64,000 nucleotides of DNA from Psychromicrobium silvestre (GTDB lineage Bacteria; Actinomycetota; Actinomycetes; Actinomycetales; Micrococcaceae), in NCBI RefSeq assembly GCF_013408295.1, contig NZ_JACBYQ010000002.1, positions 1,116,001 through 1,180,000 on the forward strand, written 5' to 3'. The first letter of the stretch is position 1; each line of letters begins with the position of its first letter. Under the pieces are notes generated by a model, which was not told the DNA's origin, searched no databases, and saw nothing but the letters and a program-made list of their open reading frames with translations. The position numbers were made by a program, and so were the translations under genes. Below are positions 2,334 to 20,567 of this stretch, piece by piece.

Positions 2334-3071
2334 TTAGGGGTGGCCGTTGGCGTAAGCCAGCAAGCCGGCGGAACTGCCATTGAAAAGATCCTGGTCGCCG
2401 CCGGGAGGTAGTGGGCCACTATCGGCGTACTGCCAGAAAGTGGTGTAGCTCCAACTTGCCGGCAGGGTACCCGGGGTGCTGGACCAACTGGCGATGAAGA
2501 GCGCGCTATCGTCGAATTCGGCACTATTTCCGGTGCACTGAGTCCACCAACTGGTCGCCGTATAGATGGTGGGGTAGCGGCCGGTACGGGTGTGGATGGT
2601 ATTGACGAAATCGTGTAGCCAGGAAACCATAGCGGACTGGCTCAGGCCGTAGCAGGTGGCGCCGTAGGGGTTTGCTTCAATATCCAGCATGGGCGGCAGG
2701 GTCTTATTATCGGCCGACCAGCCACCGCCGTGATCCACCAGGTAGTTCGCCTGATTGGCTCCGGAGGAATCATTCGGAGTGGCGAAGGTATAGGCGCCCC
2801 GAATCAGTCCGACGTCATAGGCGCCGTTGTACTGCTGGGCGAAATAGGGATTCTGGTAGTAGTTGCCCTCGGTGGCTTTCACGTAGGCCCATTGCACGCC
2901 GGCTGCCTTGACCGCGTTCCAGTCCACATTGCCCTGATGGCTGGCCACATCGATGCCTGGCGGACCGGTAGGAGCCGCTTGCGCAGGCAGTGCACTGGCG
3001 GCAACCAGGCCCAGCGAAAGGGCGATTGGGGCGGCGATGGACAGGGTTCGAAACTTGGACAGTTTGAACAT
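2334..3071 (-). CDS. Secreted GH25 muramidase (lysozyme)
   Basis: A 245-residue exported glycoside hydrolase of family 25, expected to cut the MurNAc-GlcNAc bond of peptidoglycan outside the cell. Residues 1-32 form a Sec signal peptide ending ALPAQA-AP. The catalytic barrel begins with GIDVASHQGNVDW (Asp41) and contains the DxE motif MLDIEAN (Asp130, Glu132), which carries the acid/base Glu in this family. No cell-wall-binding repeats follow, so it is a bare catalytic domain. The ATG at 3071, giving MFKLSKF, was chosen over upstream in-frame codons because the signal peptide begins there and GGAAAGG precedes it. It opens the putative muropeptide locus, so it may supply fragments for uptake. 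Confidence 0.9.
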   Translation of the reverse strand: MFKLSKFRTLSIAAPIALSLGLVAASALPAQAAPTGPPGIDVASHQGNVDWNAVKAAGVQWAYVKATEGNYYQNPYFAQQYNGAYDVGLIRGAYTFATPNDSSGANQANYLVDHGGGWSADNKTLPPMLDIEANPYGATCYGLSQSAMVSWLHDFVNTIHTRTGRYPTIYTATSWWTQCTGNSAEFDDSALFIASWSSTPGTLPASWSYTTFWQYADSGPLPPGGDQDLFNGSSAGLLAYANGHP

Positions 3072-3238
3072 GGCTTCGTTACCTTTCCGACGGAGTTGAG
3101 GAAAGTTTTCACTGAACCGTCCCAACCAGTACACCCTGTGAATCTGCTGAGCACCAGAGGTTAATGAAATAAATTTACGAAATTTAGAGAAACTCGTAGC
3201 TAAGGTTCAGTCGCTCCGAAGACAGGCTTAACGCCGCT

Positions 3239-4102
3239 TTAGCGGGTCTTTTTCAAGGGTTCCACGGAGTCGAAGGTCGCTTTGAGGGCGGCTACCGATG
3301 AGTCGTAATTACGCTCGGCCAATCCGGTGAAAATGAAGTCCACCATCGCTAATTGGGCAATCCGGCTAGCCATTGCACCGGCCCGGAAGGTGGTCTCTCG
3401 AGCCGAGGTCAGCAGAACGTGATCGGCGATCGTGGCGAGTTTTGAGTTACCGGAGTTGGTGATGCCCACAGTGGTGGCGCCGGAGGCTTTTGCCAGTTTC
3501 AGGAACTCCACGGTTTCGTAGGTATTGCCGCTATAGGAGAAGCCAATGGCGACGTCTTGCGGTCCGATCAGGGCGGCCGAGGAGATGGCGTCGTGCGCAT
3601 CGGTGAACTCCAGCGCCATTCTGCCGATCCGCAAAAGCTTGCGGCGCAGATCTTGGGAGCCAAGGTTGCTCGCGCCTACTCCGAAGAGCAGAATCGATCG
3701 GGCCTGGTCCACGGCGTCGATCACCTTGGCCAGCGCCTCGACATCCAGCTTCCCCACGGTTTCCTCGATGCTCATCACCTCTGCGAAGGCGATTCTGGCG
3801 ACGGTGTCCACTAGGGTATTGCCGGAGTTGAGATCCGCCCCATGGCCGACGCCGGCGCTAAACTGGGCGGCCTCTCTGCCGATTTCGGTGGCTAGTTCGA
3901 AGCGTAGCTGAACATATCCAGCCAAGCCGATTCCGCGGCAGAAGCGTACAACGGTGGTTTCCGAGGTTTGGCAGTATTGGGCTAGCTCGGTAATGGTCTT
4001 TTCCAGTACCAAGCGAGGGTTGGTCAGCACTGCCTCGGCCACCCGGGTCATTGACGGGGAAAACGAGCTTTTTGCCGTCAAGATCGTCGACTGGATACTC
4101 AA
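3239..4102 (-). CDS. RpiR/MurR-family regulator, copy 1
   Basis: A 287-residue repressor-type protein: N-terminal RpiR helix-turn-helix (about residues 1-77, with ITELAQYCQTSETTVVRFCRGIG) and a C-terminal SIS phosphosugar-binding domain (about 120-255). The start is a TTG preceded by AAAGGA; it is supported because the resulting MSIQSTI N-terminus matches that of the second RpiR protein at 18185. RpiR members next to murQ usually sense MurNAc-6P or other amino-sugar phosphates; the ligand here is inferred, not shown. It is divergent from the C39-like peptidase gene and lies at the left end of the muropeptide locus. Confidence 0.9.
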   Translation of the reverse strand: MSIQSTILTAKSSFSPSMTRVAEAVLTNPRLVLEKTITELAQYCQTSETTVVRFCRGIGLAGYVQLRFELATEIGREAAQFSAGVGHGADLNSGNTLVDTVARIAFAEVMSIEETVGKLDVEALAKVIDAVDQARSILLFGVGASNLGSQDLRRKLLRIGRMALEFTDAHDAISSAALIGPQDVAIGFSYSGNTYETVEFLKLAKASGATTVGITNSGNSKLATIADHVLLTSARETTFRAGAMASRIAQLAMVDFIFTGLAERNYDSSVAALKATFDSVEPLKKTR

Positions 4103-4143
4103 GGGTGTCCTTTCACCAAGCTATTTGCAGATAGCGCACCTTT

Positions 4144-4249
4144 AATCTACCTTCTGGCGTGCCGGCTGGGAGGTTGTGCCCTAGGTTTTATGGTCTGAAC
4201 GGGGAATGTATGAAAATCATTGACCAATTGACAATGTTTTAGGTAGATT
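4144..4249. promoter_or_regulatory. Inverted AATCTACC / GGTAGATT pair in divergent promoter region
   Basis: AATCTACC (4144-4151) and its exact complement GGTAGATT (4242-4249) flank the space between the divergent rpiR copy 1 and C39-like genes. The second copy overlaps the predicted -10 region of the C39-like gene, so the pair could be operator half-sites for looping or for two separate dimers. Binding is an inference. Confidence 0.4.
4220..4249 (+). promoter_or_regulatory. Putative promoter of the C39-like peptidase gene
   Basis: A -35-like TTGACC (4220-4225) and a -10-like TAGATT (4244-4249) are separated by 18 bases, placing a transcript start about 50 bases before the ATG at 4305. The overlapping TTGACA at 4228 has no good -10 partner. 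Confidence 0.4.
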
Positions 4250-4304
4250 GGCAACACTCCGCTGTGTGAGGTCACTATCGGATCCGAAGAGATTGAGGAA
4301 CAAG

Positions 4305-4931
4305 ATGACCAGCAATGTTGATCGCCGAACTCTGCTCAAGACCGGCGCGATATCGGCGCTCGCGGTGGCCGCGGGCTCGGCCGCAACTCTCACCAGCGCT
4401 GCTCCGGCGCAGGCGGCCAATTGGGTGGTGCTCAACCACGAATACCAAGCTCAAGCCACCGGGTACTGGTGCGGCCCGGCCGCAACAAGAATAGCCCTCT
4501 CGGCGCGGATTGCCCCGCCTAGCCAGCAGACCTTGGCCAATGCCCTGGGTACCACTGTCAACGGCACGGACTATATTGGCCAGGTAACCGGGGTGCTGAA
4601 CAACTACCTCGGCACCGGCTGGTACGAAACCAAGAACATGCCCAACGATCCACCCAGCCAAGCCCAAAAGGATCTGCTCTGGCGGGATATCGTGCTGGAT
4701 ATCAACAACAACTATCCGATTGTTGCCAATATTGTGGCTCCTCCTGGAAATCAACCTCCGGGATACCCCTCCGACCAGACGATCTATCACTACTTCACGA
4801 TCATCGGATATAACCCCGATACCTGGCAGGTCTATATTGCCGACCCCGCGAACTTTAGCGGCAATAATCACTATTGGCTGAGTTTCGATCAACTGGCCAC
4901 CCTGATTCCACCGAAGGGGTATTCCGCATAG
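4305..4931 (+). CDS. Tat-exported C39-like cysteine peptidase
   Basis: A 208-residue secreted protein. The N-terminus has a twin-arginine motif (DRRTLLK, residues 6-12), a hydrophobic core and an Ala-rich cleavage site near residue 37 (APAQA-AN). The mature part fits the papain-like C39-type peptidase fold: nucleophile Cys56 in YWCGPAAT, His162 in YHYFTIIGY and Asp180 in YIADPANF. Substrate is unknown; export and its place beside murein enzymes suggest cleavage of peptidoglycan stem peptides or cross-bridges. The ATG at 4305 follows GAGGAA by five bases; the frame is open further upstream, but that part would bury the Tat signal. The epimerase gene overlaps its end. Confidence 0.8.
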   Translation: MTSNVDRRTLLKTGAISALAVAAGSAATLTSAAPAQAANWVVLNHEYQAQATGYWCGPAATRIALSARIAPPSQQTLANALGTTVNGTDYIGQVTGVLNNYLGTGWYETKNMPNDPPSQAQKDLLWRDIVLDINNNYPIVANIVAPPGNQPPGYPSDQTIYHYFTIIGYNPDTWQVYIADPANFSGNNHYWLSFDQLATLIPPKGYSA

Positions 4932-6013
4932 CACCGTTCATTAGCTCCCTGACCACCCATCCTGTTCGAGTGCCGTTGCTGAGCCCCTTCACCACCTCGG
5001 TGCGCAGCGCCACGGAACTAGACACCGTGCTGCTGCAATTGACCGATCAGGATGGCCGAAGCGGCTGGGGCGAAGTGCCCGCTAGTAAGGTCACCGGAGT
5101 GTCTTCGAGGACCAGCGTCCGCAGCCTGGAAGGCCCGTTGCGCGCGCTGGTCCTCGCTGCCGGGAATCCGGAGGAGGCGCTCACGAAGCTGGCGGTCAGC
5201 GGCGAGCCAGCCGCAATCCGTTCGGCAATGGACTGCGCCTTGCATGACTTGATCGCCCAGCGCGCAAGCCTACCGCTGGCTCGACTGATAGGAGCGGGAA
5301 GGCTGCGATTGCGCACTGATATGACGCTTTCGGTTGCTTCCACCGAAGAGCTAATCCCCAAGGTTCGGGATCATCTGGATCAGGGATTCGACTGCCTGAA
5401 AATTAAAATTGATGCCCATCACGATGCCGTCGCCGCGCTGCGGGCCATCCGTGAACTGGTGGGTCCAGCGATGCAGTTACGCATCGATGCGAACCAGGCT
5501 TTTGAAGCGGGGGACGCAATCCGGGTGATCCGCGCCATGGAGGATGCCGACGTCGGCCTCAGCCTGGTCGAGCAGCCGGTACGTGCCGATGACCTGAGTG
5601 GCCTGGCCTTGGTGAGCGCCGCGGTGGACACTCCCGTGATGGCGGACGAGAGTGTCTGGTCGATGGCGGACCTGGAGGAGCTGCTGAGGTTGAAGGCAGC
5701 GCCAATGGTCAACCTTAAACTGGCCAAAACAGGTGGCTTGCTAACCGCCCGAGCCATGTTGACCCGCGCGCTCGCTGAGGGACTTGAAGTGGTGATCGGC
5801 TGCATGTTGGAGAGCCCGGTAGCCATTTCTGCAGCCGCCGCGCTCGCCGCCACCCTGCCGGAGATGGCCCAGGATTTGGACGGCGGGCTCTGGCTGCGGT
5901 CTTCACCGGTAGTTGGCGGGGCCGTTTACCAAGGCCCCGAAATCACCTTGCCAGATGTTCCGGGTCTTGGCGTTACCGCTCTGGCGGGCCGAGGACTAAG
6001 GGATAGGGACTAA
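4874..6013 (+). CDS. L-Ala-D/L-Glu epimerase (enolase superfamily)
   Basis: Member of the muconate-lactonizing/AE-epimerase group; this type converts L-Ala-D-Glu released from murein peptide into L-Ala-L-Glu for catabolism. Numbering from the TTG at 4874, the catalytic KxK is Lys176/Lys178 (CLKIKID), the metal ligands are Asp205 (RIDAN), Glu233 (VEQP) and Asp258 (MADES), and the second catalytic lysine is Lys282 (NLKLAKTGG). GCMLESP near the C-terminus is typical of this subgroup. The start is unusual: no in-frame ATG or GTG exists before GTG 4970, which would delete the first strand. TTG 4874 gives a 58-base overlap with the upstream gene; a rare codon near 4928 after GAAGGGG is another option. 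It ends 4 bases into the convergent serine hydrolase gene. Confidence 0.88.
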   Translation: MAEFRSTGHPDSTEGVFRIAPFISSLTTHPVRVPLLSPFTTSVRSATELDTVLLQLTDQDGRSGWGEVPASKVTGVSSRTSVRSLEGPLRALVLAAGNPEEALTKLAVSGEPAAIRSAMDCALHDLIAQRASLPLARLIGAGRLRLRTDMTLSVASTEELIPKVRDHLDQGFDCLKIKIDAHHDAVAALRAIRELVGPAMQLRIDANQAFEAGDAIRVIRAMEDADVGLSLVEQPVRADDLSGLALVSAAVDTPVMADESVWSMADLEELLRLKAAPMVNLKLAKTGGLLTARAMLTRALAEGLEVVIGCMLESPVAISAAAALAATLPEMAQDLDGGLWLRSSPVVGGAVYQGPEITLPDVPGLGVTALAGRGLRDRD

Positions 6014-6840
6014 GGGGTAGGCTCCAGGAGCGGGCCGAGTAGAGCCTGGGTCAAGGCGTGGATTAGTTCCGCAGCGTCGGGTTCCGGATAGGCCCGGGTG
6101 CAGATGGCCAGCAAAAATCCCTGCCTCGCAGCGGAGTTCGCCGCGACAGAACTCGCCGGGAAAATGAAGGCTACATCGTGCTGGATACCGGTAACCCAAC
6201 CCGATTTGCTGCCCCATTCCGGAACCGGGGCGAAAGTCGATAACTCGGTGCCGATCACCGGATATTCTTGGGCGCGCAGCCAGCCGAGCATGAGCTCGGT
6301 ATGCTCGTCATTGGCCACCTCGCCGCGGACAATGGCGCCCATGACTCGGCACAGATCCCTAGCCGTGACCTCGTGCGTAAGGCCCTGCTCAAGCGCGGTA
6401 ATATCACCGATTAGGCGTTCCATCTTGGAATCGGTGGCGCCGCAAGCCCGCAAAGCCGTCATCACCGCGGGGAAACCCACCAGCTCGACTACCAGATTGG
6501 TGGCCTCATTGGAGGACACCGAAATCATCCGGCCAAGTACCTCGCGGAGAGTCATGGTGGCACCCTCGGCCGCCATCCCGACGTCGTACTCCTCAGGCTC
6601 GAAGGAGAAGCTGCCGCCCGCCTGACTACTGAAGGTGTGCGTCGAGATGAGTTCTTGTTCCAGGCTCAATTCACCACGTTCGACGGCGGTGATGGCCGCA
6701 ACGAGAACGGCCAGTTTGATGGTACTGGCTGAATAGAATCGGGTGTCCGCTTTGCGTTCGGCCAGCACCTCACCCGCCAGGGTACTGAGGCAATAGCTGG
6801 CAACCGGCACACCGTCGCTGTAATCGGAGGTCAGGGACAC
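6010..6840 (-). CDS. Class A beta-lactamase-fold serine hydrolase, cytoplasmic
   Basis: A 276-residue protein with the penicillin-recognising fold: SxxK as Ser39-Thr-Ile-Lys42, an SDN-like SSN (SVSSNEATN) and a KSG box (WGSKSGWV). It has no signal peptide, and the ExxLN omega-loop motif of true class A beta-lactamases is not seen, so antibiotic resistance is unlikely. A role on intracellular muropeptides or peptides (peptidase, amidase or esterase) is inferred from context. It is the last gene of the tightly packed importer-LdcA-hydrolase operon running leftward from 14288, 7 bases after the class C-type hydrolase. Its stop overlaps that of the convergent epimerase by four bases. Confidence 0.8.
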   Translation of the reverse strand: MSLTSDYSDGVPVASYCLSTLAGEVLAERKADTRFYSASTIKLAVLVAAITAVERGELSLEQELISTHTFSSQAGGSFSFEPEEYDVGMAAEGATMTLREVLGRMISVSSNEATNLVVELVGFPAVMTALRACGATDSKMERLIGDITALEQGLTHEVTARDLCRVMGAIVRGEVANDEHTELMLGWLRAQEYPVIGTELSTFAPVPEWGSKSGWVTGIQHDVAFIFPASSVAANSAARQGFLLAICTRAYPEPDAAELIHALTQALLGPLLEPTP

Positions 6841-6847: not shown

Positions 6848-7981
6848 CTAGACAGCTAGTTCTTGATAGACAGCATCCGAAATCGATCGTCGGAAGGCCT
6901 GAACATCGGAGAGCTCACGACGTGGGTGCACCCGGTTACTCAGCAGCACAACACTGATCCCAGCCTGCTGATCCACCAGAAGCGAGGTTCCGGTGAATCC
7001 GTTGTGGCCTCTGGCTTCGGAGTGATCACCCACCCAACTACTTTGGCCGATCCGTAACCCCAGGCTATGACCGAAATCTATACCGCTCTTTTCAGCGAGT
7101 CCCTCGGGCAGTTGACTCCGCCACATTTCCGCGGCCAAGCCGGGGGAGAGGATGCCAGGTAGCGCCGTCCGCAGTGCCTCGCCGAGTTCCAAGAGTGCCG
7201 CGGCCGTGCCGAACATACCGGCGTTGCCGCACAAGCCATTGCCCGATAAGCCTCCCGCTTGCCCGCTGCCCAGCGACCAAGCGGCTTCGTCGTGCACAAT
7301 CCCTCGCACCATCCCTCTACCCAGCTCCGGTTGAAACTCGGTGGCCGCACAACGCTCAATCTCCGGAGCCCCGGTGAGTTCGGTAGTTGGCAGCCGGTCC
7401 AGCAGGCGTTCTTGCACTAGCTTGGCCCAGGGCCGGCCCGTTGCGGTCTCGGCCAGCGCCATCACGGTATTGAAACCCACACAGGAATACTCAAAACGGC
7501 TTCCGGGGGCTGCCTCGAGCTCGGTGGCCAAGAGATCCTTGAGTAGACGTTCGCGCTCGAAGCCTTCGGCCCGCTCCAGGGCTCGGAGCCATCCGGTCCA
7601 GCTTCCAGGCAGCCCCGAGGTGTGGGTGAGCAGGTGCCGGAGGGTGACCTGAGATTTGGCTCCGATCCGATATTGCGGAAGCTGGCTTCCGATCGGCTGA
7701 TCGAGTTTAAGGGTCCCGTCATCCACCAGGCTCAGCGCGGTGATGGTGGTAAAGATCTTGGTGACGGAGGCCAAGTCGTAGCTGGTGCCTGCCTCGGCCC
7801 GGACTCGTTCTGCCTCAGGCAGCTCCTGACCGTTCTCGCCGAAACGTACCGCATCGCCTACCGCAATGGGTTCCAGCCGTTCACCGCCGGAGGCAACAGC
7901 GCAAACCGCCGAAGGGGTAACCCCTTCGGCCACCGCGCGGCGGATGAGATCTTCCAGGGTGTTGCGAAGCTTCGAGGTCAT
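6848..7981 (-). CDS. Class C beta-lactamase-fold serine hydrolase (AmiE-like candidate)
   Basis: A 377-residue PF00144-type serine hydrolase without signal peptide. The nucleophile motif SVTK is Ser72-Lys75. The usual YSN is Tyr164-Ser-Cys166, with Cys replacing Asn, and the KTG-equivalent is HNG in GHNGFTG. In Bacillus subtilis a member of this family (YbbE/AmiE) lies in the murQ-nagZ cluster and removes the peptide from MurNAc. The same role is plausible here but inferred. Its ATG overlaps the LdcA stop as ATGA, so translation is coupled. Confidence 0.82.
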   Translation of the reverse strand: MTSKLRNTLEDLIRRAVAEGVTPSAVCAVASGGERLEPIAVGDAVRFGENGQELPEAERVRAEAGTSYDLASVTKIFTTITALSLVDDGTLKLDQPIGSQLPQYRIGAKSQVTLRHLLTHTSGLPGSWTGWLRALERAEGFERERLLKDLLATELEAAPGSRFEYSCVGFNTVMALAETATGRPWAKLVQERLLDRLPTTELTGAPEIERCAATEFQPELGRGMVRGIVHDEAAWSLGSGQAGGLSGNGLCGNAGMFGTAAALLELGEALRTALPGILSPGLAAEMWRSQLPEGLAEKSGIDFGHSLGLRIGQSSWVGDHSEARGHNGFTGTSLLVDQQAGISVVLLSNRVHPRRELSDVQAFRRSISDAVYQELAV

Positions 7982-8889
7982 CAGTTCAGTACCAGCCTAG
8001 GGTTGTCGTTCGCGATTAGTTGGGCGGCTACGCCCAGTGGAATGCTATGGGCCGCCGGACCGTGGCCGAAGCCCAGTTCCCAGACCAGTGGAATGCCCAA
8101 CGGGACTAGTAGTTCTTCGCAGAGGGCTTTGACTTCTGGCAGGGTTCCGCAGGATTTCCAGGAGCCGAGAGCCAGGCCGCTGAGGCCCTCGAACCAGCCG
8201 GCTCGCATTAGTGCCTGTAGATAGCCGTCGAGCTTATAGACATCCTCGGTGACGTCTTCCAGTAGGCCGATTTTGCCGGCGTTGGAAGGTTTTACTTGGT
8301 TATGGGCGCCGAGGGTCATGCAGAGCAGGCTGAGATTACCGCCGGTGAGTGTTCCTTTGGCGTGGCCGGGCACCAGGCTGAGTGCCTCGGGGCTGCTGAA
8401 CTCTCGTCCCGAAAAGGGCTCAAAAACCGCTTCTCGCAGTTGGCGGGTGGCTTCTTGATCGTTGAATAGATCCGCGGTGGCCACCATGGGAGTGAACCAG
8501 GTGGGCTCGCCCACGCGGTGTTCCCAGAATTCGTGGATGGCGGTGACGTCCGAGGAGCCGTAAAGAGGTTTAGGGCTCGCCGCCCGCAGAGCATCGACGT
8601 CCAAGAGGTCCAAGACCCTTACGGCTCCGTAGCCACCCCGGGCGAAAAAGATTCCGTCGATCTGTGGGTCGCACCAGGCCTGCTGAAGCTGGCTGGCCCG
8701 GTAGGCATCCGGACCAGCCAAATACTTCGCGCGTGGGTGGGGAGTATGGAAGTCCGCATCGACCACAGGCTGTAAGCCCCAGGACTCGATGAGCGCGATG
8801 CCCCGTTCGAAGGACTCCGCGGCGGGCGGACCCGAGGCAGAGAGCACGGCTACCCGGTCACCCGGGCGCAGCGGACCAAGTGAAGTCAT
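7981..8889 (-). CDS. ldcA: LD-carboxypeptidase, peptidase family S66
   Basis: Cytoplasmic serine peptidase of the LdcA/MccF family; LdcA removes the terminal D-Ala from murein tetrapeptides during recycling. The 302-residue protein shows FFARGGYGAVR, the nucleophile elbow YGSSD (Ser113), a catalytic Glu in GLLEDV and the His in GFGHG near the C-terminus. Length fits the family. MccF-type enzymes of the same family cleave other acyl-amidated peptides, so the substrate rests on context: it sits inside the peptide-importer operon, linked by ATGA overlaps to the ATPase gene upstream and the serine hydrolase downstream. Confidence 0.9.
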   Translation of the reverse strand: MTSLGPLRPGDRVAVLSASGPPAAESFERGIALIESWGLQPVVDADFHTPHPRAKYLAGPDAYRASQLQQAWCDPQIDGIFFARGGYGAVRVLDLLDVDALRAASPKPLYGSSDVTAIHEFWEHRVGEPTWFTPMVATADLFNDQEATRQLREAVFEPFSGREFSSPEALSLVPGHAKGTLTGGNLSLLCMTLGAHNQVKPSNAGKIGLLEDVTEDVYKLDGYLQALMRAGWFEGLSGLALGSWKSCGTLPEVKALCEELLVPLGIPLVWELGFGHGPAAHSIPLGVAAQLIANDNPRLVLN

Positions 8890-12476: not shown

Positions 12477-14288
12477 CTACTCCCTGTTGTCTGCGCTAGC
12501 GGAACGCCTGCGCAGCAGGAGGAAGGCCAGGGCGGCCAGGACCACGACGATCGCTGGAACAATCACCCAAACCCAGCTGAAGCCGGTGTCGACTGCAGTC
12601 GTGTTTGAACTTACCGGAGTGGCGCTGTAGTAGCCCCAGGGGCCGTTCTGGCCGGTGATTACACCGCCCTTTTCGGGCTGCGTGGTGAAGGGTTGGAATC
12701 GATCCGAACGGTAGGCCTCTAGGGAGTTGGCGTAGTAAATCACGTCATTGACCGCGTTGTTGTAGATGATTGACTGAGCCTGCTTGACCAGTTCGCTGCG
12801 CTTTGCTTGATCCAGCTCGGCATGCTGTTGCTTGTACAGTGCATCGAACTTGGGATCACACATAGCGTTCTCGGTGGTGTTACCCGAGCCGTCCTCATCG
12901 GGCAGTGAGGAGCACTGGTTGATCGAGAGCTGGTAGTCCGGGTCCGGGCCGATGCCCCAGCCAGTGAAGTAGAGATCGAAGTTGCCCTTAGCCGAATCTT
13001 CGCCAACCTGTCCGCTCGACTTCATAGTGGTAGTGACGTTAATGCCGATGTTCTTCAGCCAAGGCTTGATGTAATCCGCCATTTGCTGGTGGGTGGGGTC
13101 AGTGTTCCGGCCCAAGAGGCGTAGATTCAGCGGCTTGCCGGTCTTATCCAAACGGATGCCGTCGGCGCCCTTGGTGTAGCCGCTCTCATCGAGCAGTTTA
13201 TTCGCGGCCGCCGGGTCGAACTTCAGTGGCAAATCCGTGGTGTCCCAGTGGTAGAGCGGGTAGGCCGAGGGGATTTCGCCGGTAGCTTGATCACCCAGAC
13301 CCTGGAGCACCTTTTCCAGCAAGGTCTTATTGTCGATCGCCATCACGATGGCTTTGCGCAGGTTCACGTCCTGCAGCGCCGGATTTCCATCCCCCAGTAG
13401 TTTGCCGGTCTTGGCCTTGGTGCCTGGGTTGATGCCCACCGCACTGTAGCGCCGGCCCTGACCGGCATTGGTGGTGATATGTGGCTGGTCCTTGAGGGAC
13501 TGGAACTGAGCCGGAGTCAGGCCACCGGCAATGTCGATTTCACCGTTCTTCAACGCCTGTACCGCAGCATCACTGTTCTGGTACGGAGCCCAGATGATGC
13601 CGTCGATCTTGGCTTTGCCCTTCCAGTAATAAGGGTTCGCCTTCATGGTCACGCCAGCGGCCTTATCGTAGCTGGAGATCACGAAGGGGCCGGAGCCAAC
13701 CGTGTCCTTATCGTTGGCGTAGCTTGCCGGATCTGCCTGCTTGGACCAGACATGCTCGGGCATGATCGGCAGATCGCCGCCCGGATTGGGTGCCTGGGCG
13801 GCGTTGAGGGTCATCACCAAGGTCTGTGCGTCCTTGGCTTCGACGCTCTTCACGTTTTCCACTAGTGCGCCGTTGGCTTGTTTGAGCTTCTCATTGCCCT
13901 TGATCGCATTGAAGGTCCACACCGCGTCATTGGCGGTGATGGGCTCGCCGTCGGACCACTTCCGGTCGGCGGGCAGATCGAAGGTCCAGACCTTGCCATC
14001 GGGGGAGGTTGTCCACTTATCCGCCAGGCCGGGAACTACCTGGTTGTCGGTACCCCAGGAGACCAGATTCTGATATTGCAGGACCAGAATGTTGGTGCCT
14101 TGGGCAGTGATCGAGACGAAGGGATTGAGAGAGTCAATGTCACCGATCAAGGCAAGTTTGAGGTTGGTTCCCTGAGAGCTGCTGCTGCTATCCGCTGCTG
14201 CTGCCGGCAGGCTCACCGCAGCCGGGGCTAAGGCGACGGCAGCGGCGATTAAGCCCGCCGCCCAACGTTTAGTGGTGATCGATTTCAT
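12477..14288 (-). CDS. Peptide ABC importer binding protein with C-terminal membrane anchor
   Basis: A 603-residue family 5 extracellular solute-binding protein (DppA/OppA/MppA class), first gene of the importer operon. The N-terminus is a Sec signal peptide ending near PAAAAD-SSSSS, and no lipobox Cys is present. Instead the C-terminus has one hydrophobic helix (about residues 571-592) followed by RRRSAS, so the protein is probably held at the membrane by its C-terminal end. The LNPF segment and the KANPYYWKGKAKIDGI region are typical of the family. The ATG at 14288 was chosen because it starts the signal peptide. Substrate is inferred as murein peptide or muropeptide from LdcA, epimerase and MurQ neighbours. 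Confidence 0.9.
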   Translation of the reverse strand: MKSITTKRWAAGLIAAAVALAPAAVSLPAAAADSSSSSQGTNLKLALIGDIDSLNPFVSITAQGTNILVLQYQNLVSWGTDNQVVPGLADKWTTSPDGKVWTFDLPADRKWSDGEPITANDAVWTFNAIKGNEKLKQANGALVENVKSVEAKDAQTLVMTLNAAQAPNPGGDLPIMPEHVWSKQADPASYANDKDTVGSGPFVISSYDKAAGVTMKANPYYWKGKAKIDGIIWAPYQNSDAAVQALKNGEIDIAGGLTPAQFQSLKDQPHITTNAGQGRRYSAVGINPGTKAKTGKLLGDGNPALQDVNLRKAIVMAIDNKTLLEKVLQGLGDQATGEIPSAYPLYHWDTTDLPLKFDPAAANKLLDESGYTKGADGIRLDKTGKPLNLRLLGRNTDPTHQQMADYIKPWLKNIGINVTTTMKSSGQVGEDSAKGNFDLYFTGWGIGPDPDYQLSINQCSSLPDEDGSGNTTENAMCDPKFDALYKQQHAELDQAKRSELVKQAQSIIYNNAVNDVIYYANSLEAYRSDRFQPFTTQPEKGGVITGQNGPWGYYSATPVSSNTTAVDTGFSWVWVIVPAIVVVLAALAFLLLRRRSASADNRE

Positions 14289-14337: not shown

Positions 14338-14352
14338 TGTAAATAAGCTACA
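14338..14352. promoter_or_regulatory. Putative RpiR operator, importer / M20 peptidase divergent promoter
   Basis: TGTAAATAAGCTACA here differs at two positions from TGTAAATTACCTACA at 18140-18154 between murQ and rpiR copy 2. Both have TGTA..TACA arms. It lies 50 bases before the binding-protein start and 80 before the M20 peptidase start. A small palindrome TGTTAACA (14357-14364) and a -10-like TATAGT (14391-14396) follow. Confidence 0.5.
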
Positions 14353-14431: not shown

Positions 14432-15745
14432 GTGAGCGTGGACGTAGCCGAACTGTGCGCAGAACTGATTCGATTCGACACTAGCAACTTCGGCGAAGGC
14501 AAGAGTCATGGTGAGCACAAGATTGCTGAATTCATTGCGCAGAAGCTCGAACAAGCGGGGTATCAGCCAATGATTCTCGGCCCGAATCTGGAACGTTCCT
14601 CGGTGCTGCTGAGAGTGCCTGGTACGGAACGTCATCTTCCGGGACTTTTGGTACATGCGCACCTGGATGTGGTTCCCGCTGAGGCCGAACAATGGAGCCG
14701 GGACCCGTTCAGCGGCCTGATCGAGGATGGTTATATCCACGGGCGAGGTGCTTGCGATATGAAAGACATGGTGGCGATGACGATGGTCACCTTACTGAAC
14801 TGGGCGGAATCCGGCCTTCGGCCCCGCCGGGACATTGTGGTGGCCTTTGTCGCCGATGAAGAGGACAAAGGAGATTACGGCGCGGGCTGGCTGGTGGATG
14901 AACACCCAGAGCTGTTCGCCGGAGTCCAGGCCGCTATTGGCGAATCCGGTGGTACAGCGAACCTACTCACCGCTCAGGACGGCTCTTCGGTCCGGCTCTA
15001 TCCGGTCGCGGCAGCGGAACGCGGAACGCTACATATCAGGGTGCGCGCGGAAGGTAACTCCGGGCACGGCTCCCGCCCGGTGGAGGTCAATGCGGTCAAG
15101 AATCTGATCGCTGCCCTGCAAAGAGTGGGGGTCTACCGGTGGCCGCTGAAGCTCACCCCGGTAGTGCGTGGCTATCTGGAGCAGACGACGGCGGCCCTCG
15201 GCTTTGCGGCGAACTTGGAGAGCGAAGAGGGCGTGGCTGCAGCGATCGAGGCGATGGGGGAGGCCGGTGAAGTGGCCAGAGTGACGGTGCGCTGCTCCTC
15301 CACCCCCACGGTGTTGCGCGCTGGCTACAAGGTGAACGTCATTCCCGGAGTTGCCGAAGCCGATATCGATATCCGCTGCCTACCGGGTACCGAGGAAAGC
15401 ACCCTAGAAACCATTGACGGCTTACTCGGTCCGGGGCTGAGCAGGAGCTTCATCGCCCATGAACCACCCACCAACTCGGCCATCGATTCGCCCTGGTTCG
15501 AGTCCATGAAGGCGAGCCTACTGCGTCACGACCCGGCCGCCGTCGTGGTTCCCTACTGTATGGGTGGCGGCACCGACGCCAAAGCCTTCAGTAAGCTCGG
15601 AATTTCCTGCTATGGATTCTCGCCGCTGACCGCAGATCCGGAGGGCCGCAGCTACCAGGGTGTGCACGGGGTGGATGAGCGGATTCCGGTGCATAGCGTG
15701 CGGGGCGGCCAGCAGATTTTGCAAGACTTCCTGAGTGAGGTGTGA
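14432..15745 (+). CDS. M20 family metallopeptidase (dipeptidase/deacylase type)
   Basis: A 437-residue cytoplasmic zinc peptidase. The metal site is complete: His77 and Asp79 in HAHLDVVP, Asp109 in GRGACDMKD, the catalytic pair Glu143-Glu144 in ADEED, and a C-terminal His in QGVHGVDERIP. SGHGSRP marks the dimerisation-domain loop. M20 enzymes cleave dipeptides, N-acyl amino acids or carbamoyl groups; here it may split the L-Ala-L-Glu made by the epimerase or other stem-peptide pieces, which is inference. The GTG start follows an excellent GGAGGA site. It is divergent from the importer operon, and its stop overlaps the next gene (GTGA). Confidence 0.88.
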   Translation: MSVDVAELCAELIRFDTSNFGEGKSHGEHKIAEFIAQKLEQAGYQPMILGPNLERSSVLLRVPGTERHLPGLLVHAHLDVVPAEAEQWSRDPFSGLIEDGYIHGRGACDMKDMVAMTMVTLLNWAESGLRPRRDIVVAFVADEEDKGDYGAGWLVDEHPELFAGVQAAIGESGGTANLLTAQDGSSVRLYPVAAAERGTLHIRVRAEGNSGHGSRPVEVNAVKNLIAALQRVGVYRWPLKLTPVVRGYLEQTTAALGFAANLESEEGVAAAIEAMGEAGEVARVTVRCSSTPTVLRAGYKVNVIPGVAEADIDIRCLPGTEESTLETIDGLLGPGLSRSFIAHEPPTNSAIDSPWFESMKASLLRHDPAAVVVPYCMGGGTDAKAFSKLGISCYGFSPLTADPEGRSYQGVHGVDERIPVHSVRGGQQILQDFLSEV

Positions 15746-17181
15746 TCCGGATGATTAGCACCGGATTGGACGCCGGAACTTGGCTGGCGGACATGTTGAC
15801 GGAACGGTTAGCCCAGGGGCTGGCCCCCTCGCTGGCCGTGGCTGCCTGGCGGAACGGCGAGCCGCTGGTCAGCTATCTGGCTGGGGACAGCGACGGCAGC
15901 GGTATCCAGCCCCGGCTGGATACCGCCTACCGAATTGCCTCTTGCACAAAATCATTCACGGCAGCGGCTTTGCTGATCCTCCGGGAGCGCGGGCTACTCA
16001 GCTTGGATGATGAGATCAGCACCTTCCTCCCCGGCTTGCGAATCGTCGGCTCTGCTGTGCCCACGCTTCGAATGCTGCTCTCCATGTCCTCCGGATTGCC
16101 CACCGACAATCCTTGGGCGGACCGGCAGGAGAGCCTGAGTGTGGAACAGATGCAGGAGCTCATGTCCGCCGGGGTCCGGTTAGCAGGAGTTCCCGGAAGC
16201 GATTATCAATACTCCAATCTGGGTTATGCCTTGCTGGGTCAGGTGATCCGGAAGCTTGCCGGAATGCCCTATCAGAACTTTGTCGAAGCCGAGTTATTGC
16301 ATCCGCTTGGGCTCTTATCGACGGGATTCGACTCTTCAGTTCCGGCCGCTGGCGGGGTGGCCCGCGGCTTTCGCAAACTTGCCCACGGTTGGCAGTTGCT
16401 ACCGTTCAGCGCCCCGGGCGAGTTCTCCGCGATCGGTGGACTCTTCAGCACCCTGGAGGATCTGGGCCGCTGGGGGAGCTGGCTCGCGGCGGCTTTCGAT
16501 GAAGAACCGGAGGGAGGTCAGGCTGATCAGGTGCTTTCTCGGGCGGCTCGGCGGGAGATGCAGCAGATTCATCAACTGATGCCGCTCACGCCTCCGGATG
16601 GCTCACTCCTTGGCTACGGCTACGGTTTGATGGTGCAGCAGAGCCCTGTGCATGGCAGGATCATCTATCACTCGGGTGGATATCCCGGATTCTCTTCGCA
16701 GTTTCGTTGGCATCCGGGCAGCGCAACCGTGCTGGCGGGGTTCGAGAACGCCAGCTATGCGAACGTCGGGGTAGCGGTAGCCGCTGCCTTAGAAGAACTT
16801 TTGGCCGGCGAGCTCTTGGCGCGCGAAGCTCACGGCGATCAGGGGCAGTTTCCGGGGGCGGAACCCTGGCCGGAGGCGCTCGCGATCCGCGCCGTGGTCG
16901 AGCGGCTGGTTCGGGGCTGGGATGATTCCCTAGCGCGCAGCATCTTCGCCGAGAATGTCGAATTGGACATCCCCATGGCCGAACGGCGGGGGAGCCTGGC
17001 GGGCTTACTGGAACAACTGGGCCCTTTGCTTGAGGAGCCAGGGTCGGCCGGGTACTCCAGCAACCCTGCTCAGCTGGAGTGGACCATGCCTGCGACTCGA
17101 GGGCGACTCAAATGCAGTTTCTCGCTTAGCCCACTGGACGCTCCCGAGGTTCAGGAACTAGAGTTCAGCGCGGTTCCCTGA
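15742..17181 (+). CDS. Class C beta-lactamase-fold serine hydrolase with C-terminal extension
   Basis: A 479-residue PF00144-type hydrolase with intact motifs: SCTK (Ser67-Lys70), YSN (Tyr157-Asn159) and HSG (IYHSGGYPG, around residue 312). About 110 residues beyond the catalytic domain form an extra C-terminal domain of mixed composition, probably substrate-binding. No signal peptide is seen, so it acts in the cytoplasm. The GTG at 15742 overlaps the M20 stop; ATG at 15751 is an alternative start. It is the third penicillin-fold hydrolase of the locus and the second AmiE-like candidate for separating peptide from MurNAc. Confidence 0.82.
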   Translation: MIRMISTGLDAGTWLADMLTERLAQGLAPSLAVAAWRNGEPLVSYLAGDSDGSGIQPRLDTAYRIASCTKSFTAAALLILRERGLLSLDDEISTFLPGLRIVGSAVPTLRMLLSMSSGLPTDNPWADRQESLSVEQMQELMSAGVRLAGVPGSDYQYSNLGYALLGQVIRKLAGMPYQNFVEAELLHPLGLLSTGFDSSVPAAGGVARGFRKLAHGWQLLPFSAPGEFSAIGGLFSTLEDLGRWGSWLAAAFDEEPEGGQADQVLSRAARREMQQIHQLMPLTPPDGSLLGYGYGLMVQQSPVHGRIIYHSGGYPGFSSQFRWHPGSATVLAGFENASYANVGVAVAAALEELLAGELLAREAHGDQGQFPGAEPWPEALAIRAVVERLVRGWDDSLARSIFAENVELDIPMAERRGSLAGLLEQLGPLLEEPGSAGYSSNPAQLEWTMPATRGRLKCSFSLSPLDAPEVQELEFSAVP

Positions 17182-17190: not shown

Positions 17191-18120
17191 TCAAGCCTGA
17201 TCGATGGCTTCCTGTAAGAAGCCATGCTGCTTTTCCAAGGCCTCCGAGGCTTCTGCCGGGCTCAAACCCGTCATCAGTACCAAGATTGCTGCTTTGACCG
17301 ATCCGCCGACCGAGGCCAAAGCCTCGGCCGCCGCGCTGGCTTCCACCCCGGTGGCCCGGATAACGGTGCGTTCGCTGCGGGCACGCAGTTTTTCGTTGCT
17401 GGCGCGCAGGTCCACCATGAGATTCCGGTAGGTCTTGCCTAGCCGCACCATGGTGATGGTACTGATCATATTGAGCACCAGCTTTTGCGTGGTGCCTGCC
17501 TTGAGCCGGGTGGAGCCGGTCAGGAACTCCGGGCCGAGTTCGATTTCGAGCGGCAACTCGGCCTGCTTACCCAGCGGTGATCCGCTGTTACAGGCGAAGC
17601 CGACGGTGAACGCCCCGACGGCCCGGGCCGCCTCAATGGCGCTGAGCACATAGGGAGTGCGGCCGGAGGCGGAGATGCCAATCACGGTATCCGCCTCGGT
17701 CAGGTTCAGGGCTCCCAGATCTGCGGCACCGGCTGCGGCGTCGTCCTCGACGTTTTCGGCGGCGCTGCGGATCGCACCCTCGCCACCGGCGATCACCCCG
17801 ATTACTTGTCCCGGATCGGTGCCGAAAGTTGGCGGGCATTCACTCGCGTCCAGCACCCCGATCCGGCCCGGGGTGCCCGCACCGATATAGATCAATCGGC
17901 CACCACGGCTCATTCGCGCGGCGATTTGGTCAATAATGGAGGCGATCATCGGTACCGCAGCCGCTATTGCTTGTGGCACCTTGCTATCTTCTCGGTTCAT
18001 AGCGGCGGCGAGTTCCAGGGTGCTCATGCTGCCCAGATCCTCGAGAGCAGGATTGGAGGATTCGGTCACCAGGGTCGCCAACTCGGCCCGTAGTGCAGTG
18101 TATTTATCGGTGCCTGCCAT
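17191..18120 (-). CDS. murQ: N-acetylmuramic acid 6-phosphate etherase
   Basis: Cleaves the D-lactyl ether of MurNAc-6P to give GlcNAc-6P and lactate, the defining step of MurNAc recycling. The 309-residue SIS-fold protein contains the family signature IYIGAGTPGRIGVLDASECPP. The two catalytic glutamates known from the Haemophilus enzyme (Glu83, Glu114) correspond to Glu94 and Glu125 here, with the same 31-residue spacing. It is divergent from rpiR copy 2 over a 64-base region with two palindromic sites, and convergent with the serine hydrolase. No MurNAc kinase or MurP-type PTS is seen in the window. Confidence 0.97.
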   Translation of the reverse strand: MAGTDKYTALRAELATLVTESSNPALEDLGSMSTLELAAAMNREDSKVPQAIAAAVPMIASIIDQIAARMSRGGRLIYIGAGTPGRIGVLDASECPPTFGTDPGQVIGVIAGGEGAIRSAAENVEDDAAAGAADLGALNLTEADTVIGISASGRTPYVLSAIEAARAVGAFTVGFACNSGSPLGKQAELPLEIELGPEFLTGSTRLKAGTTQKLVLNMISTITMVRLGKTYRNLMVDLRASNEKLRARSERTVIRATGVEASAAAEALASVGGSVKAAILVLMTGLSPAEASEALEKQHGFLQEAIDQA

Positions 18121-18139: not shown

Positions 18140-18154
18140 TGTAAATTACCTACA
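18140..18154. promoter_or_regulatory. Putative RpiR operator 1 in murQ-rpiR region
   Basis: TGTAAATTACCTACA, an imperfect inverted repeat with TGTA..TACA arms, lies 20 bases before the murQ start. Thirteen of 15 positions match 14338-14352 in the importer promoter region, which is why it is proposed as a regulon operator. Confidence 0.55.
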
Positions 18155-18170: not shown

Positions 18171-18182
18171 TGTAAATTTACA
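18171..18182. promoter_or_regulatory. Perfect palindrome abutting the rpiR copy 2 start
   Basis: TGTAAATTTACA is a perfect 12-bp palindrome ending two bases before the ATG at 18185. It shares the TGTAAAT half with the sites at 18140 and 14338. There is no room for a Shine-Dalgarno site, so the transcript is probably leaderless and the palindrome would cover its -10 region (TAAATT, 18173-18178), fitting autorepression. Confidence 0.6.
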
Positions 18183-18184: not shown

Positions 18185-19045
18185 ATGAGCATTCAATCCA
18201 CCATCCATTCGCTCCTGCCGACGCTACCACCCACCGCGCGTCGGATCGCCGAGCTCATTGTCGCTGATCCCAGCGTGGTGCTGCGGAATACCATCTCGGA
18301 ACTGGCGCAGAAATGTCAGACCTCCGAACCATCGGTGGTGAGGTTCTGCCGGACCGTCGGATTTAGCGGTTATGTCCAGTTGCGACTTGCACTAGCCACC
18401 GAGATCGGCAGGGAAACTGCCGTAGAACCAGAGCCAAGACGGTTCGGCGACGATATCAGCCCCACAGATTCACTCGCGGATGCCGTGGACAAGGTGAGAT
18501 TCACCGAGTTGATGGCCATTGAGGAAACCTTGGCGACCGTGGATTTGGACACCCTGGGGCGGGCAGCCGAGCAACTCGACCAGGCGGAGAGAATATTGCT
18601 CTACGGCATTGGAGCCGGAGCGGTGGTGGCTGAGGACTTCCGGTACAAGCTTTCCCGGATCGGTCGAACAGCCATCTCCTATCCCGATCTACACGGCGCA
18701 CTGATGGGGGTGGCTCTTTTGCGTCCCAACGATATGGTGGTGGCCTTTTCGCATTCGGGCGAAACTCCGGAAACGGTACAGTTTTTGCGCGCCGCTAAGG
18801 CAGCAGGAGGTGCCAGCTTAGCGATGACCAATGTTCGGAAGTCGCGGATCGTGACCGAAGCGGACCTCAGCCTCTTTACCGTGGTGCGGGAGACGGCCTT
18901 CCGCTCCGGTGCAATGGCCTCCCGCATCGCCCAATTGGCGCTTGTTGACTGCCTTTTTGTGGCCATCGCCCAGCGCAGTTACGAGTCCACCATCAACGCC
19001 CTGGAACGGACCCGCTCAGCAGTGCAGCAACGGCCCGGGCGGTGA
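18185..19045 (+). CDS. murR: RpiR/MurR-family regulator, copy 2
   Basis: A 286-residue paralogue of the protein at 3239, sharing MSIQSTI, ISELAQKCQTSEPSVVRFCR and the SIS-domain motif HSGETPETVQFL. The N-terminal helix-turn-helix (about residues 1-77) binds DNA; the SIS domain (about 120-255) binds a phosphosugar. Divergence from murQ makes MurNAc-6P the likely effector, as for MurR of E. coli and B. subtilis, though this is inferred. It starts at once after a perfect palindrome with no ribosome-binding site, suggesting a leaderless, self-regulated gene. Its last 53 bases overlap the convergent nagZ gene. The gene symbol is tentative. Confidence 0.9.
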   Translation: MSIQSTIHSLLPTLPPTARRIAELIVADPSVVLRNTISELAQKCQTSEPSVVRFCRTVGFSGYVQLRLALATEIGRETAVEPEPRRFGDDISPTDSLADAVDKVRFTELMAIEETLATVDLDTLGRAAEQLDQAERILLYGIGAGAVVAEDFRYKLSRIGRTAISYPDLHGALMGVALLRPNDMVVAFSHSGETPETVQFLRAAKAAGGASLAMTNVRKSRIVTEADLSLFTVVRETAFRSGAMASRIAQLALVDCLFVAIAQRSYESTINALERTRSAVQQRPGR

Positions 19046-20567
19046 TCCGCGAAGAGTCGAAACAATTCACGGTGCTCAGCGGCAACTGAACTCCCGGTGC
19101 CATTCCGGCATTGATGCAAATAGCCTTCGGTGCTTTTTTGGCGAGTTGCGTAAGCGCTTCTAGTTGTTCGCTTCCGGGTTGTAGTGCATCAGCGAGTACG
19201 ACGACGGCTCCCGGAGTTGAGCTCAGCTGGTCCAGGCTGCTTCGCCTCAACTGGTAGTGCTCGGAGAGGGCAGCCGCGAAGAAGTTACCGCTTGGTCCGG
19301 CAGCCATATTGTGGCCACGCCGAGCATCGAGGAAGTGCAGCTCCGTCCCGGTCGGCCAAGCCAGCTTTTTCGCCAATTCTTCGAGCTCATTTGTAGTCCT
19401 GCTGATTTCCCCGGGTTCGCTCGGCGGTTCGCTGAGGCTGAAGGCGTTGACGATTCTGGCCGCCCAGTCCTGCTCAACGGCTCCGCCGCGGGTGTCTGCC
19501 GCTGCCTCCATGGCTTGGGTGCTCCAGCGTGCGAAAGCCATTACTCGCCCGCTCGCCGTTTCCAGCACCTCTCGCGGCAGTTGGCCGTTCTGAGCCGCGG
19601 CCAGCACGGCGTCGAAAACTTCCAGGTACTCCGCTTCTTCGGATTTGCTGCCCGCGTTCGCCGGATTGCCCAAGCAGAGCAGATCGGCCCCGGCGAGTAA
19701 GGCCTGCACGGCCCCCAGCCCGGAACCTACGGTGGCTCTGATGGCACCCATGTCCAAGGCGTCGGTGATCTGCAGACCCCGGAAGCCCAAACTACGCAGC
19801 AGCTCACCGGCTGCGGGATTGAGAGTGGCCGGAGTCTCGGACTGGGCTGGATCCCCCAGGCCGGGTACCACAATATGGGCAGTCATCACGGCTTGCACAC
19901 CGGCTTCAATTGCCTGCTGGAAGGGCGGCAGATGTTGTGCCTTCAACACCTCGGGTTTCAGATCAAGCCGCGGCAGGCCTAAATGTGAATCCGTCACGGT
20001 GTCGCCGTGACCGGGGAAGTGCTTGACGCAGGCACCGACACCCAAAGCTTGGATTCCGCGCAGCACAGCCACTGTGTGTCGGCCGACCAATGCGGTGTCC
20101 GCGCCGAAGGAACGCACCCCGATCACCGGGTTGAGTGGGTTGGTGTTGACATCCGCGACCGGTGCAAGATTGAGGTTGATTCCGGCTTCCCGGCAGAGCC
20201 TGCCCAAGGTGCGGCCGGCCGCTTCGCTGAGTTCGACGTCGTCCAGCCTGCCCAGCAGTGCCGCTCCCGGCACCAGCGAGCCACGTTTGGCTTGTAACCT
20301 GCTCACCCCGCCGCCCTCTTCGTCCACGCCGATCACCGCAAGCGGATGAGCGGCGCGGACTTCGGCGGATAGTTTGGCAATCTGACCGGGGGAGTCCGGA
20401 TCGATATTCTGGCTGAAGTACACCACCCCGGCCAGCCCTTCGCCCAGCACCTTTCGCAGCCAGCTGGGCAGGGTTGTTCCGTGGAATCCTGGCCAGATGA
20501 CGCTGTTCACTAGCCGTCGTAGTTCTTCCTGCGTGGGTTCCGCCGAATCGGAGCCAGTATTAAGCAT
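18993..20567 (-). CDS. nagZ: Beta-N-acetylglucosaminidase, GH3
   Basis: Removes GlcNAc from GlcNAc-MurNAc(-peptide). The 524-residue protein has the NagZ signature KHFPGHGDTVTDSHLGLP (residues 182-199). It contains the Asp193-His195 dyad that serves as acid/base in this family, and the nucleophile Asp269 in QITDALDMGA. It is longer than the E. coli enzyme (about 340 residues): a second, C-terminal domain of about 150 residues is present, as in the Bacillus enzyme. No signal peptide is seen, so it should act on imported muropeptides. It is convergent with and overlaps rpiR copy 2, and divergent from purH with only 38 bases between. Confidence 0.93.
   Translation of the reverse strand: MLNTGSDSAEPTQEELRRLVNSVIWPGFHGTTLPSWLRKVLGEGLAGVVYFSQNIDPDSPGQIAKLSAEVRAAHPLAVIGVDEEGGGVSRLQAKRGSLVPGAALLGRLDDVELSEAAGRTLGRLCREAGINLNLAPVADVNTNPLNPVIGVRSFGADTALVGRHTVAVLRGIQALGVGACVKHFPGHGDTVTDSHLGLPRLDLKPEVLKAQHLPPFQQAIEAGVQAVMTAHIVVPGLGDPAQSETPATLNPAAGELLRSLGFRGLQITDALDMGAIRATVGSGLGAVQALLAGADLLCLGNPANAGSKSEEAEYLEVFDAVLAAAQNGQLPREVLETASGRVMAFARWSTQAMEAAADTRGGAVEQDWAARIVNAFSLSEPPSEPGEISRTTNELEELAKKLAWPTGTELHFLDARRGHNMAAGPSGNFFAAALSEHYQLRRSSLDQLSSTPGAVVVLADALQPGSEQLEALTQLAKKAPKAICINAGMAPGVQLPLSTVNCFDSSRITARAVAALLSGSVPGR

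Follow-up and report, generated by a model that had tools for sequence, protein, structure and literature searches.

A predicted gene block for the uptake and breakdown of murein fragments in the purN-purH interval of Psychromicrobium silvestre, and the recurrent pairing of murQ with peptide-type importers

The DNA analyzed here (the window) is a stretch of 64,000 nucleotides from Psychromicrobium silvestre, positions 1116001-1180000 of contig C2 in a genome of 3.17 Mb in two contigs (G000). It carries a block of 16 genes bounded by purN (1707-2273) and purH (20606-22234), and we consider it rather likely that this block encodes the uptake and breakdown of murein fragments. Profile searches against Pfam and NCBIfam identified all gene families of the block and confirmed those named, with their positions, in an initial annotation of the sequence. 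The tightly packed operons of that annotation were correct for the minus-strand run SBP-DppB-DppC-DppDF-LdcA-BlaC1-BlaA, extending from about 14288 down to 6010, and for M20-BlaC2 on the plus strand (14432-17181); SBP denotes the substrate-binding protein of a Dpp/Opp-type ATP-binding cassette (ABC) importer. The plus strand also carried a C39-like peptidase with an epimerase (4305-6013) and the regulator RpiR2 (18185-19045), and GH25, RpiR1, MurQ, and NagZ were single genes on the minus strand. The tie between importer and enzymes proposed earlier was supported by conserved synteny, a shared operator-like motif, and recurrent linkage of murQ and importer in other bacteria. The same evidence upheld the uptake and breakdown part of the suggestion that the cell feeds on foreign or shed murein, whereas these two sources were indistinguishable from sequence.

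In the scheme that we propose, the secreted GH25 muramidase, and perhaps also the C39-like peptidase exported by the twin-arginine (Tat) route, would release muropeptides outside the cell, and the importer (SBP, DppB, DppC, and DppDF) would take them up whole. In the cytosol, NagZ would remove N-acetylglucosamine (GlcNAc), and the S12 hydrolase BlaC1, which may be PBP4B/AmiE-like, would either part N-acetylmuramic acid (MurNAc) from the peptide or trim D-Ala. LdcA would take off the terminal D-Ala, the epimerase would convert L-Ala-D-Glu to L-Ala-L-Glu, and the M20 peptidase would then split the dipeptide. A BadF-type kinase encoded elsewhere would phosphorylate MurNAc, MurQ would convert the resulting MurNAc 6-phosphate (MurNAc-6P) to GlcNAc-6P and D-lactate, and NagA and NagB, also encoded elsewhere, would feed GlcNAc-6P into metabolism. 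An RpiR regulator would bind TGTAAATNNNNTACA ahead of both the importer operon and murQ, the signal presumably being MurNAc-6P; with both sites bound, the proposal is that the importer operon and murQ would therefore respond together.

Conservation was examined in the genus genomes G000 to G006, and the purN-purH site in six of them. In G005 the purN-purH interval contained these 16 genes with order and orientation unchanged, at protein identities of 56-93%, and because all 16 genes were syntenic the block is more than a chance assembly. G004 and G006 kept the importer, BlaC1, MurQ, a second MurQ-like gene, RpiR2, and NagZ at this site. The core therefore stayed together in related genomes, where the initial annotation had proposed to look for it, as the full block in G005 and as importer-BlaC1-MurQ-RpiR-NagZ in G004 and G006. 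At the same site of G002 the block looked decayed: MurQ, SBP, and RpiR2 were each matched in two pieces, BlaC1 and NagZ persisted, and no permease or ATPase match was left in the stretches read. G003 had NagZ and, beside it, only a weak MurQ-like frame (61 bits; L047 5793-6587). G001 carried a different locus with DppDF, an S12 hydrolase, an epimerase, AnmK, MurQ, DppC, DppB, SBP, and RpiR.

The divergent promoters between SBP and M20 and between MurQ and RpiR2 had TGTAAATNNNNTACA in common, with the putative RpiR operators TGTAAATAAGCTACA at 14338-14352 and TGTAAATTACCTACA at 18140-18154 as the matches in the window. The pattern, which was derived from the same four sites (two promoters in G000 and G005), occurred exactly twice per whole genome in G000 and in G005, always at these two promoters, and the reversed control pattern had 0 occurrences in both genomes. 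In a stricter form allowing at most 1 mismatch, 2 matches were found within the window versus 0.07 expected; 2 of 100 shuffles also reached 2. The motif was not found in L032, L033, L034, L036, L037, L044, and L062, which include the stretches of G004, G006, G002, and G036, or at the loci that carry the kinase and nagA/nagB genes (L239-L243). These searches thus gave no support for a tie between the kinase and the putative regulon. The shared motif suggested that the block is probably co-regulated.

The enzyme assignments were firmest for MurQ (17191-18120, minus strand), which scored 357.1 bits with TIGR00274, above the curated equivalog cut-off of 302, and was 49% identical to E. coli MurQ. 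E94 and E125, which we take to be the catalytic glutamates, were invariant across 11 sequences and were aligned with E. coli MurQ. The NagZ-type GH3 beta-N-acetylglucosaminidase (18993-20567, minus strand; PF00933 197 bits) had an intact KHFPGHG...DSH catalytic motif when aligned to the solved GH3 enzymes 6k5j and 3tev, and the solved relatives nearest in the comparison included the longer YbbD/NagZ of Bacillus. The predicted YkfB-like L-Ala-D/L-Glu (dipeptide) epimerase (4874-6013, plus strand; start codon uncertain; MR_MLE domains) had as its top solved relative the L-Ala-D/L-Glu epimerase 1jpm (E 4e-66), presumably that of B. subtilis, followed by the dipeptide epimerase 3jva. Its segments KxK, DAN, VEQP, MADES, and NLKL/NIKL aligned to those of solved dipeptide epimerases, where we assume that they hold the catalytic residues. 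Both S66 domains of the LdcA-type L,D-carboxypeptidase (7981-8889, minus strand; PF02016 and PF17676, N and C) were above the Pfam cut-off, at 102 and 87 bits, and the protein aligned with 1zrs/1zl0 (PA5198). The M20 metallopeptidase (14432-15745, plus strand), a dipeptidase candidate, belonged to the PRK07906 subfamily (NF005913 532 bits, cut-off 382).

The block also encodes three penicillin-fold serine hydrolases. BlaC1 (6848-7981, minus strand; S12, PF00144 169 bits), a candidate MurNAc-L-Ala amidase or D,D-peptidase, had PBP4B as its nearest NCBIfam model (PRK03642 69 bits, cut-off 385) and was 27% identical along its full length to E. coli YfeW (E 5e-24), the sequence used for comparison; SxxK, YS, and HxGFTGT were conserved in its family. 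BlaC2 (15742-17181, plus strand; S12, PF00144 198 bits) was AmpH-like, with AmpH as its nearest NCBIfam model (95 bits, cut-off 266). BlaA (6010-6840, minus strand; PF13354, Beta-lactamase2, 120 bits) had the class A fold and is a candidate cytosolic peptidase or amidase.

Export signals were judged from hydropathy, a crude test, and by visual inspection. By these means leaders were present in the GH25 protein, the C39-like protein, and SBP, and no obvious signal peptide was seen in NagZ, LdcA, the epimerase, M20, BlaA, BlaC1, or BlaC2; sugar-bearing fragments should therefore enter the cell. The GH25 muramidase (2334-3134, minus strand; lysozyme-type, PF01183 176 bits) had an N-terminal hydrophobic segment and, by eye, DxE in 'MLDIEA', and is predicted to cut murein extracellularly. 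The exported C39-like peptidase (4305-4931, plus strand; PF13529, Peptidase_C39_2, 73 bits) had the twin-arginine leader RRTLLK by eye. The importer consisted of an SBP_bac_5 binding protein with a signal peptide (12477-14288; PF00496 306 bits; reading frame open to 14378, likely ATG at 14288), the permeases DppB (11428-12474; PF00528 and PF19300) and DppC (10535-11431; PF00528 and PF12911), and the fused two-domain ATPase DppDF (8889-10535; two ABC_tran and oligo_HPY; reading frame open to 10700, likely ATG at 10535), all on the minus strand. The C-terminus of SBP (12477-12560) formed a hydrophobic helix with a basic tail, perhaps membrane-anchoring, and no lipobox was seen by eye; to our knowledge such an ending is unusual in this family.

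A genomic route through a phosphotransferase system (PTS) was also considered. The EIIC of the MurP/NagE family (PF02378) had no match in G000 or G005, so neither has a MurP or NagE route, and MurP/NagE import was ruled out for G000; the same model matched 4 of 8 genomes searched and 7 of 14 control genomes. AnmK was rejected as the missing kinase, with no match in G000, G002, G003, G004, G005, and G006 from a model that matched 9 of 39 genomes, 7 of them above cut-off. Two BadF-family kinases of G000 were above the Pfam cut-off, both outside the block. One adjoined an RpiR regulator, an SIS protein, and an NgcE-type GlcNAc/diacetylchitobiose binding protein (TIGR03851 608 bits, cut-off 400), and it matched the solved MurNAc/GlcNAc kinase 8zo3 (E 8e-16). 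Neither closely resembled the BadF kinases linked to murQ, identity over near full length reaching about 39% at most. A NagB-like gene lay at C1:1069476 and a NagA-like gene at C1:1080086, both outside the block; NagA was under its equivalog cut-off (189 versus 226), a result that the search gave for 12 of 13 genomes. The initial annotation had seen no MurNAc kinase, MurP, NagA, or NagB. This is correct for the block, and PTS EIIC was missing from the genome as well, but for the kinase, NagA, and NagB it does not extend genome-wide: the gap appears local to the block, with candidate genes elsewhere. At L240 (9063-15278; C2, about 645-651 kb) the BadF kinase gene is divergent from those for RpiR, the SIS protein, the NgcE-type binding protein, and sugar permeases, and judged by this gene content the locus is one for amino-sugar uptake.

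We further investigated whether murQ and such importers occur together in other bacteria. MurQ was found in 145 of 394 genomes of the class. Search models built from proteins of the window and its relatives were applied to 70 murQ loci, picked by hand from the murQ genes listed and each covering 20 kb or less; every genus contributed one to seven of them, and the most frequent genus, g60, contributed 3. The same models were applied to 29 control stretches, drawn from these genomes or from related ones. DppB and DppC were present, with an importer gene on the murQ strand at most 2.6 kb from murQ, at 18 of the 70 loci versus 3.5% of control positions (binomial p 2e-11, ignoring kinship). These 18 loci fell into 5 of 14 family groups (f17 3/12, f23 1/1, f32 9/23, f35 3/12, and f41 2/3), and the pairing was also found in two alphaproteobacterial loci. 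Compared with the other murQ loci, those bearing an importer were richer in AnmK (11/22 versus 6/48), the epimerase (5/22 versus 0/48), and the S12 hydrolase (15/22 versus 10/48), and poorer in BadF kinase (2/22 versus 20/48). In L147 the genes SBP-DppB-DppC-MurQ-AnmK-epimerase-S12-DppDF lay on one strand; L184 matched it but lacked the epimerase, and Devosia L132 had MurQ-SBP-DppB-DppC-DppDF-S12-AnmK. Chloroflexi L135, which ends at a contig end, had DppB-DppC-two ATPases-NagZ-S12-BadF-MurQ, with the importer further from murQ but in one run. Among 80 named murQ loci listed, DppB and DppC occurred together in at least 5 (L060, which is G004, L069, L108, L132, and L135), and an importer gene lay on the murQ strand within 5 kb in at least 3 (L060, L108, and L132). 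In Candidatus Carbobacillus altaicus (L130 1773-11882), NagZ, AnmK, an S12 hydrolase, a BadF kinase, MurQ, and LdcA were all encoded on the same strand; here, too, LdcA and murQ are grouped.

The descent of these importers was traced in a DppC tree of 63 rows, 28 of them murQ-linked; L245, L268, L135, and L201 were labelled linked, L167 and L171 (importer on the opposite strand) unlinked, and L244 was left out as a copy of the window. The linkage label changed at least 6 times on the tree, or at least 5 times without the opposite-strand importer of Mycetocola (L069), and gains were indistinguishable from losses. In one clade, murQ-linked importers from two Alphaproteobacteria and from several families of Actinobacteria came together; another contained the f32 importers, with the Chloroflexi importer nearby, and the murQ-linked importer of G036 stood in yet another place. 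The window clade (G000, G004, and G005) grouped, with support 100/100, with importers that lack murQ linkage in G095, G260, and G347. The window importer and the one commonly linked to murQ are therefore not orthologous, and a single orthologous murQ-linked importer family was rejected. As read from this tree, the claim that the importer is 'dedicated' is weakened by descent, and the murQ-importer pairing is strengthened by recurrence. We tentatively suggest, with somewhat less than even confidence, that Dpp/Opp-type ABC importers were recruited repeatedly to murQ operons from different branches and import whole muropeptides where MurQ but no MurP-type PTS is present, the window block being one independently assembled and unusually complete case. 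If so, such importers would account for the missing uptake of MurNAc in many Actinobacteria and in some Alphaproteobacteria and Chloroflexi.

Several results weighed against these readings, in addition to the derivation of the motif from its own sites. In a search of ten genomes, the closest relatives of the window importer beyond its genus (G095, G260, and G347; DppC 53-56%) were not murQ-linked, which left the 'dedicated' importer of the initial annotation unproven. No other block homologue was found beside them in the stretches read, the G260 importer being near a contig end; those of G095 and G260 adjoined isoprenoid genes (by eye), and each of the three genomes carried a different importer beside murQ. 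The sampled murQ loci were related to one another as well as hand-picked. DppB and DppC within the stretch, without regard to distance and strand, occurred in 22 of 70 murQ loci versus 4 of 29 controls (p 0.08, not significant), and co-occurrence within 20 kb was therefore dropped as stand-alone evidence. Neither NagZ (4/22 versus 12/48) nor RpiR (16/22 versus 30/48) was enriched with the importer. With narrow models, built like that for GH25 from two or three sequences each, none of the 70 murQ loci gave a match to LdcA, M20, BlaA, or C39, and the wider combination therefore looks particular to the window lineage; GH25 was found in 2 of 70. Among the loci listed, 0 of the 46 Streptomyces-titled ones (of 80) had DppB and DppC, several of these stretches being short. 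Within the genus, the full block was present in 2 of the 6 genomes examined at the purN-purH site.

The assignments themselves carried further reservations of this kind. Equivalog cut-offs were missed by NagZ (PRK05337, 145.8 versus 207), by LdcA (PRK11253, 89.8 versus 378), and by the epimerase (NF041118, 138.6 versus 500; NF011708, 118.5 versus 343), whose top NCBIfam model was DgcA (168.9, cut-off 400). There was no kinase within the block, and both BadF kinases elsewhere were below the NagK equivalog cut-off. The hydropathy check was not clean, with values of 1.73 for BlaA (its SxxK helix) and 1.49 for MurQ versus 1.49 for the C39 protein; it is crude because the N-terminal hydrophobic stretches of BlaA and MurQ were as strong as the C39 leader. 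The solved binding proteins closest to SBP were nearly tied among chitin-oligosaccharide, nickel, and dipeptide types, the first group presumably binding chitin oligosaccharides, and a ligand guess from the closest solved protein was dropped on account of this near tie.

Other explanations of the block were weighed on the same evidence. The importer could take only sugar-free murein peptides, with GlcNAc and MurNAc entering otherwise, for example through the NgcE-type importer beside the BadF kinase. LdcA, the epimerase, and M20 suit a peptide diet, the NgcE locus with its BadF kinase, RpiR, and SIS protein is present elsewhere in the genome, and the closest peptide analogue is dpp-ykf of Bacillus. 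However, a link between the importer and the sugar branch is given by NagZ, which lacks an obvious export signal, and by the motif that the promoters of importer and murQ have in common, and importer gene runs elsewhere include murQ and anmK (L147, L184, and L132), so that we regard a peptide-only importer as unlikely, although as the most serious competitor to the uptake of whole muropeptides.

We gave distinctly less credence to the idea that a general di/oligopeptide permease lies in the block by chance and that the block recycles the sugars of the cell's own wall. The window-type importers found outside the genus lack murQ linkage, and Dpp-type importers are common, as the presence of DppB and DppC in 4 of 29 controls illustrates; but here the importer shares one gene run with LdcA and BlaC1 and the same motif as murQ. 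It was kept in G000, G004, G005, and G006, and most of it is lost in G002, where murQ is likewise fragmented. Least credible by far was a beta-lactam response locus, in which the three penicillin-fold proteins would be beta-lactamases or penicillin-binding proteins under muropeptide control. It would account for three such hydrolases in one block, but all three were without an obvious export signal and scored far below the curated cut-offs of class A (51 versus 200, for BlaA) and class C (38.6 and 46.5 versus 415), and BlaA, BlaC1, and BlaC2 were rejected as beta-lactamases. The uptake and breakdown of murein fragments, sugars included, remained our preferred reading.

Further features were noted in and around the block. 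RpiR1 (3239-4102, minus strand) and RpiR2, the latter divergent from murQ, are RpiR/MurR-family regulators with HTH_6 and SIS domains. A perfect palindrome, TGTAAATTTACA, stood in the MurQ/RpiR2 divergent promoter (18171-18182) and was kept in G005, and two blocks between RpiR1 and the C39-like gene (4211-4228 and 4241-4265) were identical in G005 and may form a second regulatory site. A second, divergent MurQ-like gene adjoined murQ in G004, G006, and G002 (L033 19209-19955, the start of L036, and L037 17929-18825), with an identity of 30-34% over the larger part of the gene in G004 and G002; a Pfam search of the L033 stretch returned no match. At the purN-purH site of Paenarthrobacter aurescens TC1 (L061 9043-12340), a BadF-like kinase, MurQ, and a major facilitator superfamily (MFS)/sugar transporter replace the block, and this transporter is a candidate MurNAc route. 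A ZMP/ZTP riboswitch (RF01750) was matched at 44756-44853 on the plus strand of the window (40.2 versus a gathering score of 39).

MurQ-dependent recycling was studied in Gram-positive bacteria in 2016 (PMC5061867), and LpqI has been studied in mycobacteria (PMC6572805). A 2026 mycobacterial preprint speculates on the uptake of MurNAc by 'an unknown transporter' (PMC13041923), and engineered C. glutamicum needed E. coli MurP and MurQ for growth on MurNAc (PMC6165865). OppBCDF-MppA and, in Gram-positive bacteria, DppBCDF-YkfD are named as uptake systems for murein fragments (PMC13204101). Our literature search of one library, judged by titles and the openings of abstracts, found no publication about a murQ-linked ABC importer in Actinobacteria among the matches listed. 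For Actinobacteria without MurP, a peptide-type importer within murQ gene runs is a testable candidate for the uptake of murein sugars.

In Bacillus, salvage of the murein sugars and salvage of the murein peptides are encoded in separate operons, and AmiE of Bacillus is a penicillin-fold hydrolase. The dppABCDE-ykfABCD operon of B. subtilis encodes a peptide ABC importer, an S66 LdcA-type enzyme, and an L-Ala-D/L-Glu epimerase and, as far as we know, includes no MurQ, NagZ, or RpiR. OppBCDF-MppA of E. coli takes up sugar-free murein peptides. Like dpp-ykf, the window block has an importer, an LdcA-type enzyme, and an epimerase, so the combination that the initial annotation called new is not new in kind; unlike dpp-ykf, it brings the salvage of sugars and of peptides together in one block with one motif. 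MurQ, an RpiR-type regulator, NagZ, and a penicillin-fold hydrolase are clustered as in murQ-murR-murP-amiE-nagZ-ybbC of B. subtilis, where the permease is the PTS protein MurP and NagZ and AmiE are extracellular (PMC5061867); the window genome differs in having no PTS EIIC match, a peptide-type ABC importer, and NagZ and S12 proteins without obvious signal peptides. As in the murR / murQ-murP-yfeW divergon of E. coli (PMC5061867), the regulator is divergent from murQ and YfeW (PBP4B) is a relative of BlaC1, but that divergon has the PTS MurP, and the N terminus of YfeW is leader-like by eye, that of BlaC1 not. SCO4305-SCO4308 of Streptomyces coelicolor provide an actinobacterial MurQ with a MurR-like regulator and no MurP, and the available portion of the source describes no importer or peptide enzymes there (PMC5061867). 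A likeness in function may also exist to YejBEF-YepA of Agrobacterium, a peptide-type ABC importer that brings muropeptides to a cytosolic NagZ (PMC9790009); YepA is encoded apart from the importer, and MurQ is not mentioned in that text. Together, these comparisons suggest that the block resembles Bacillus murQRP-amiE-nagZ and dpp-ykf combined, with a peptide-type ABC importer in place of the PTS.

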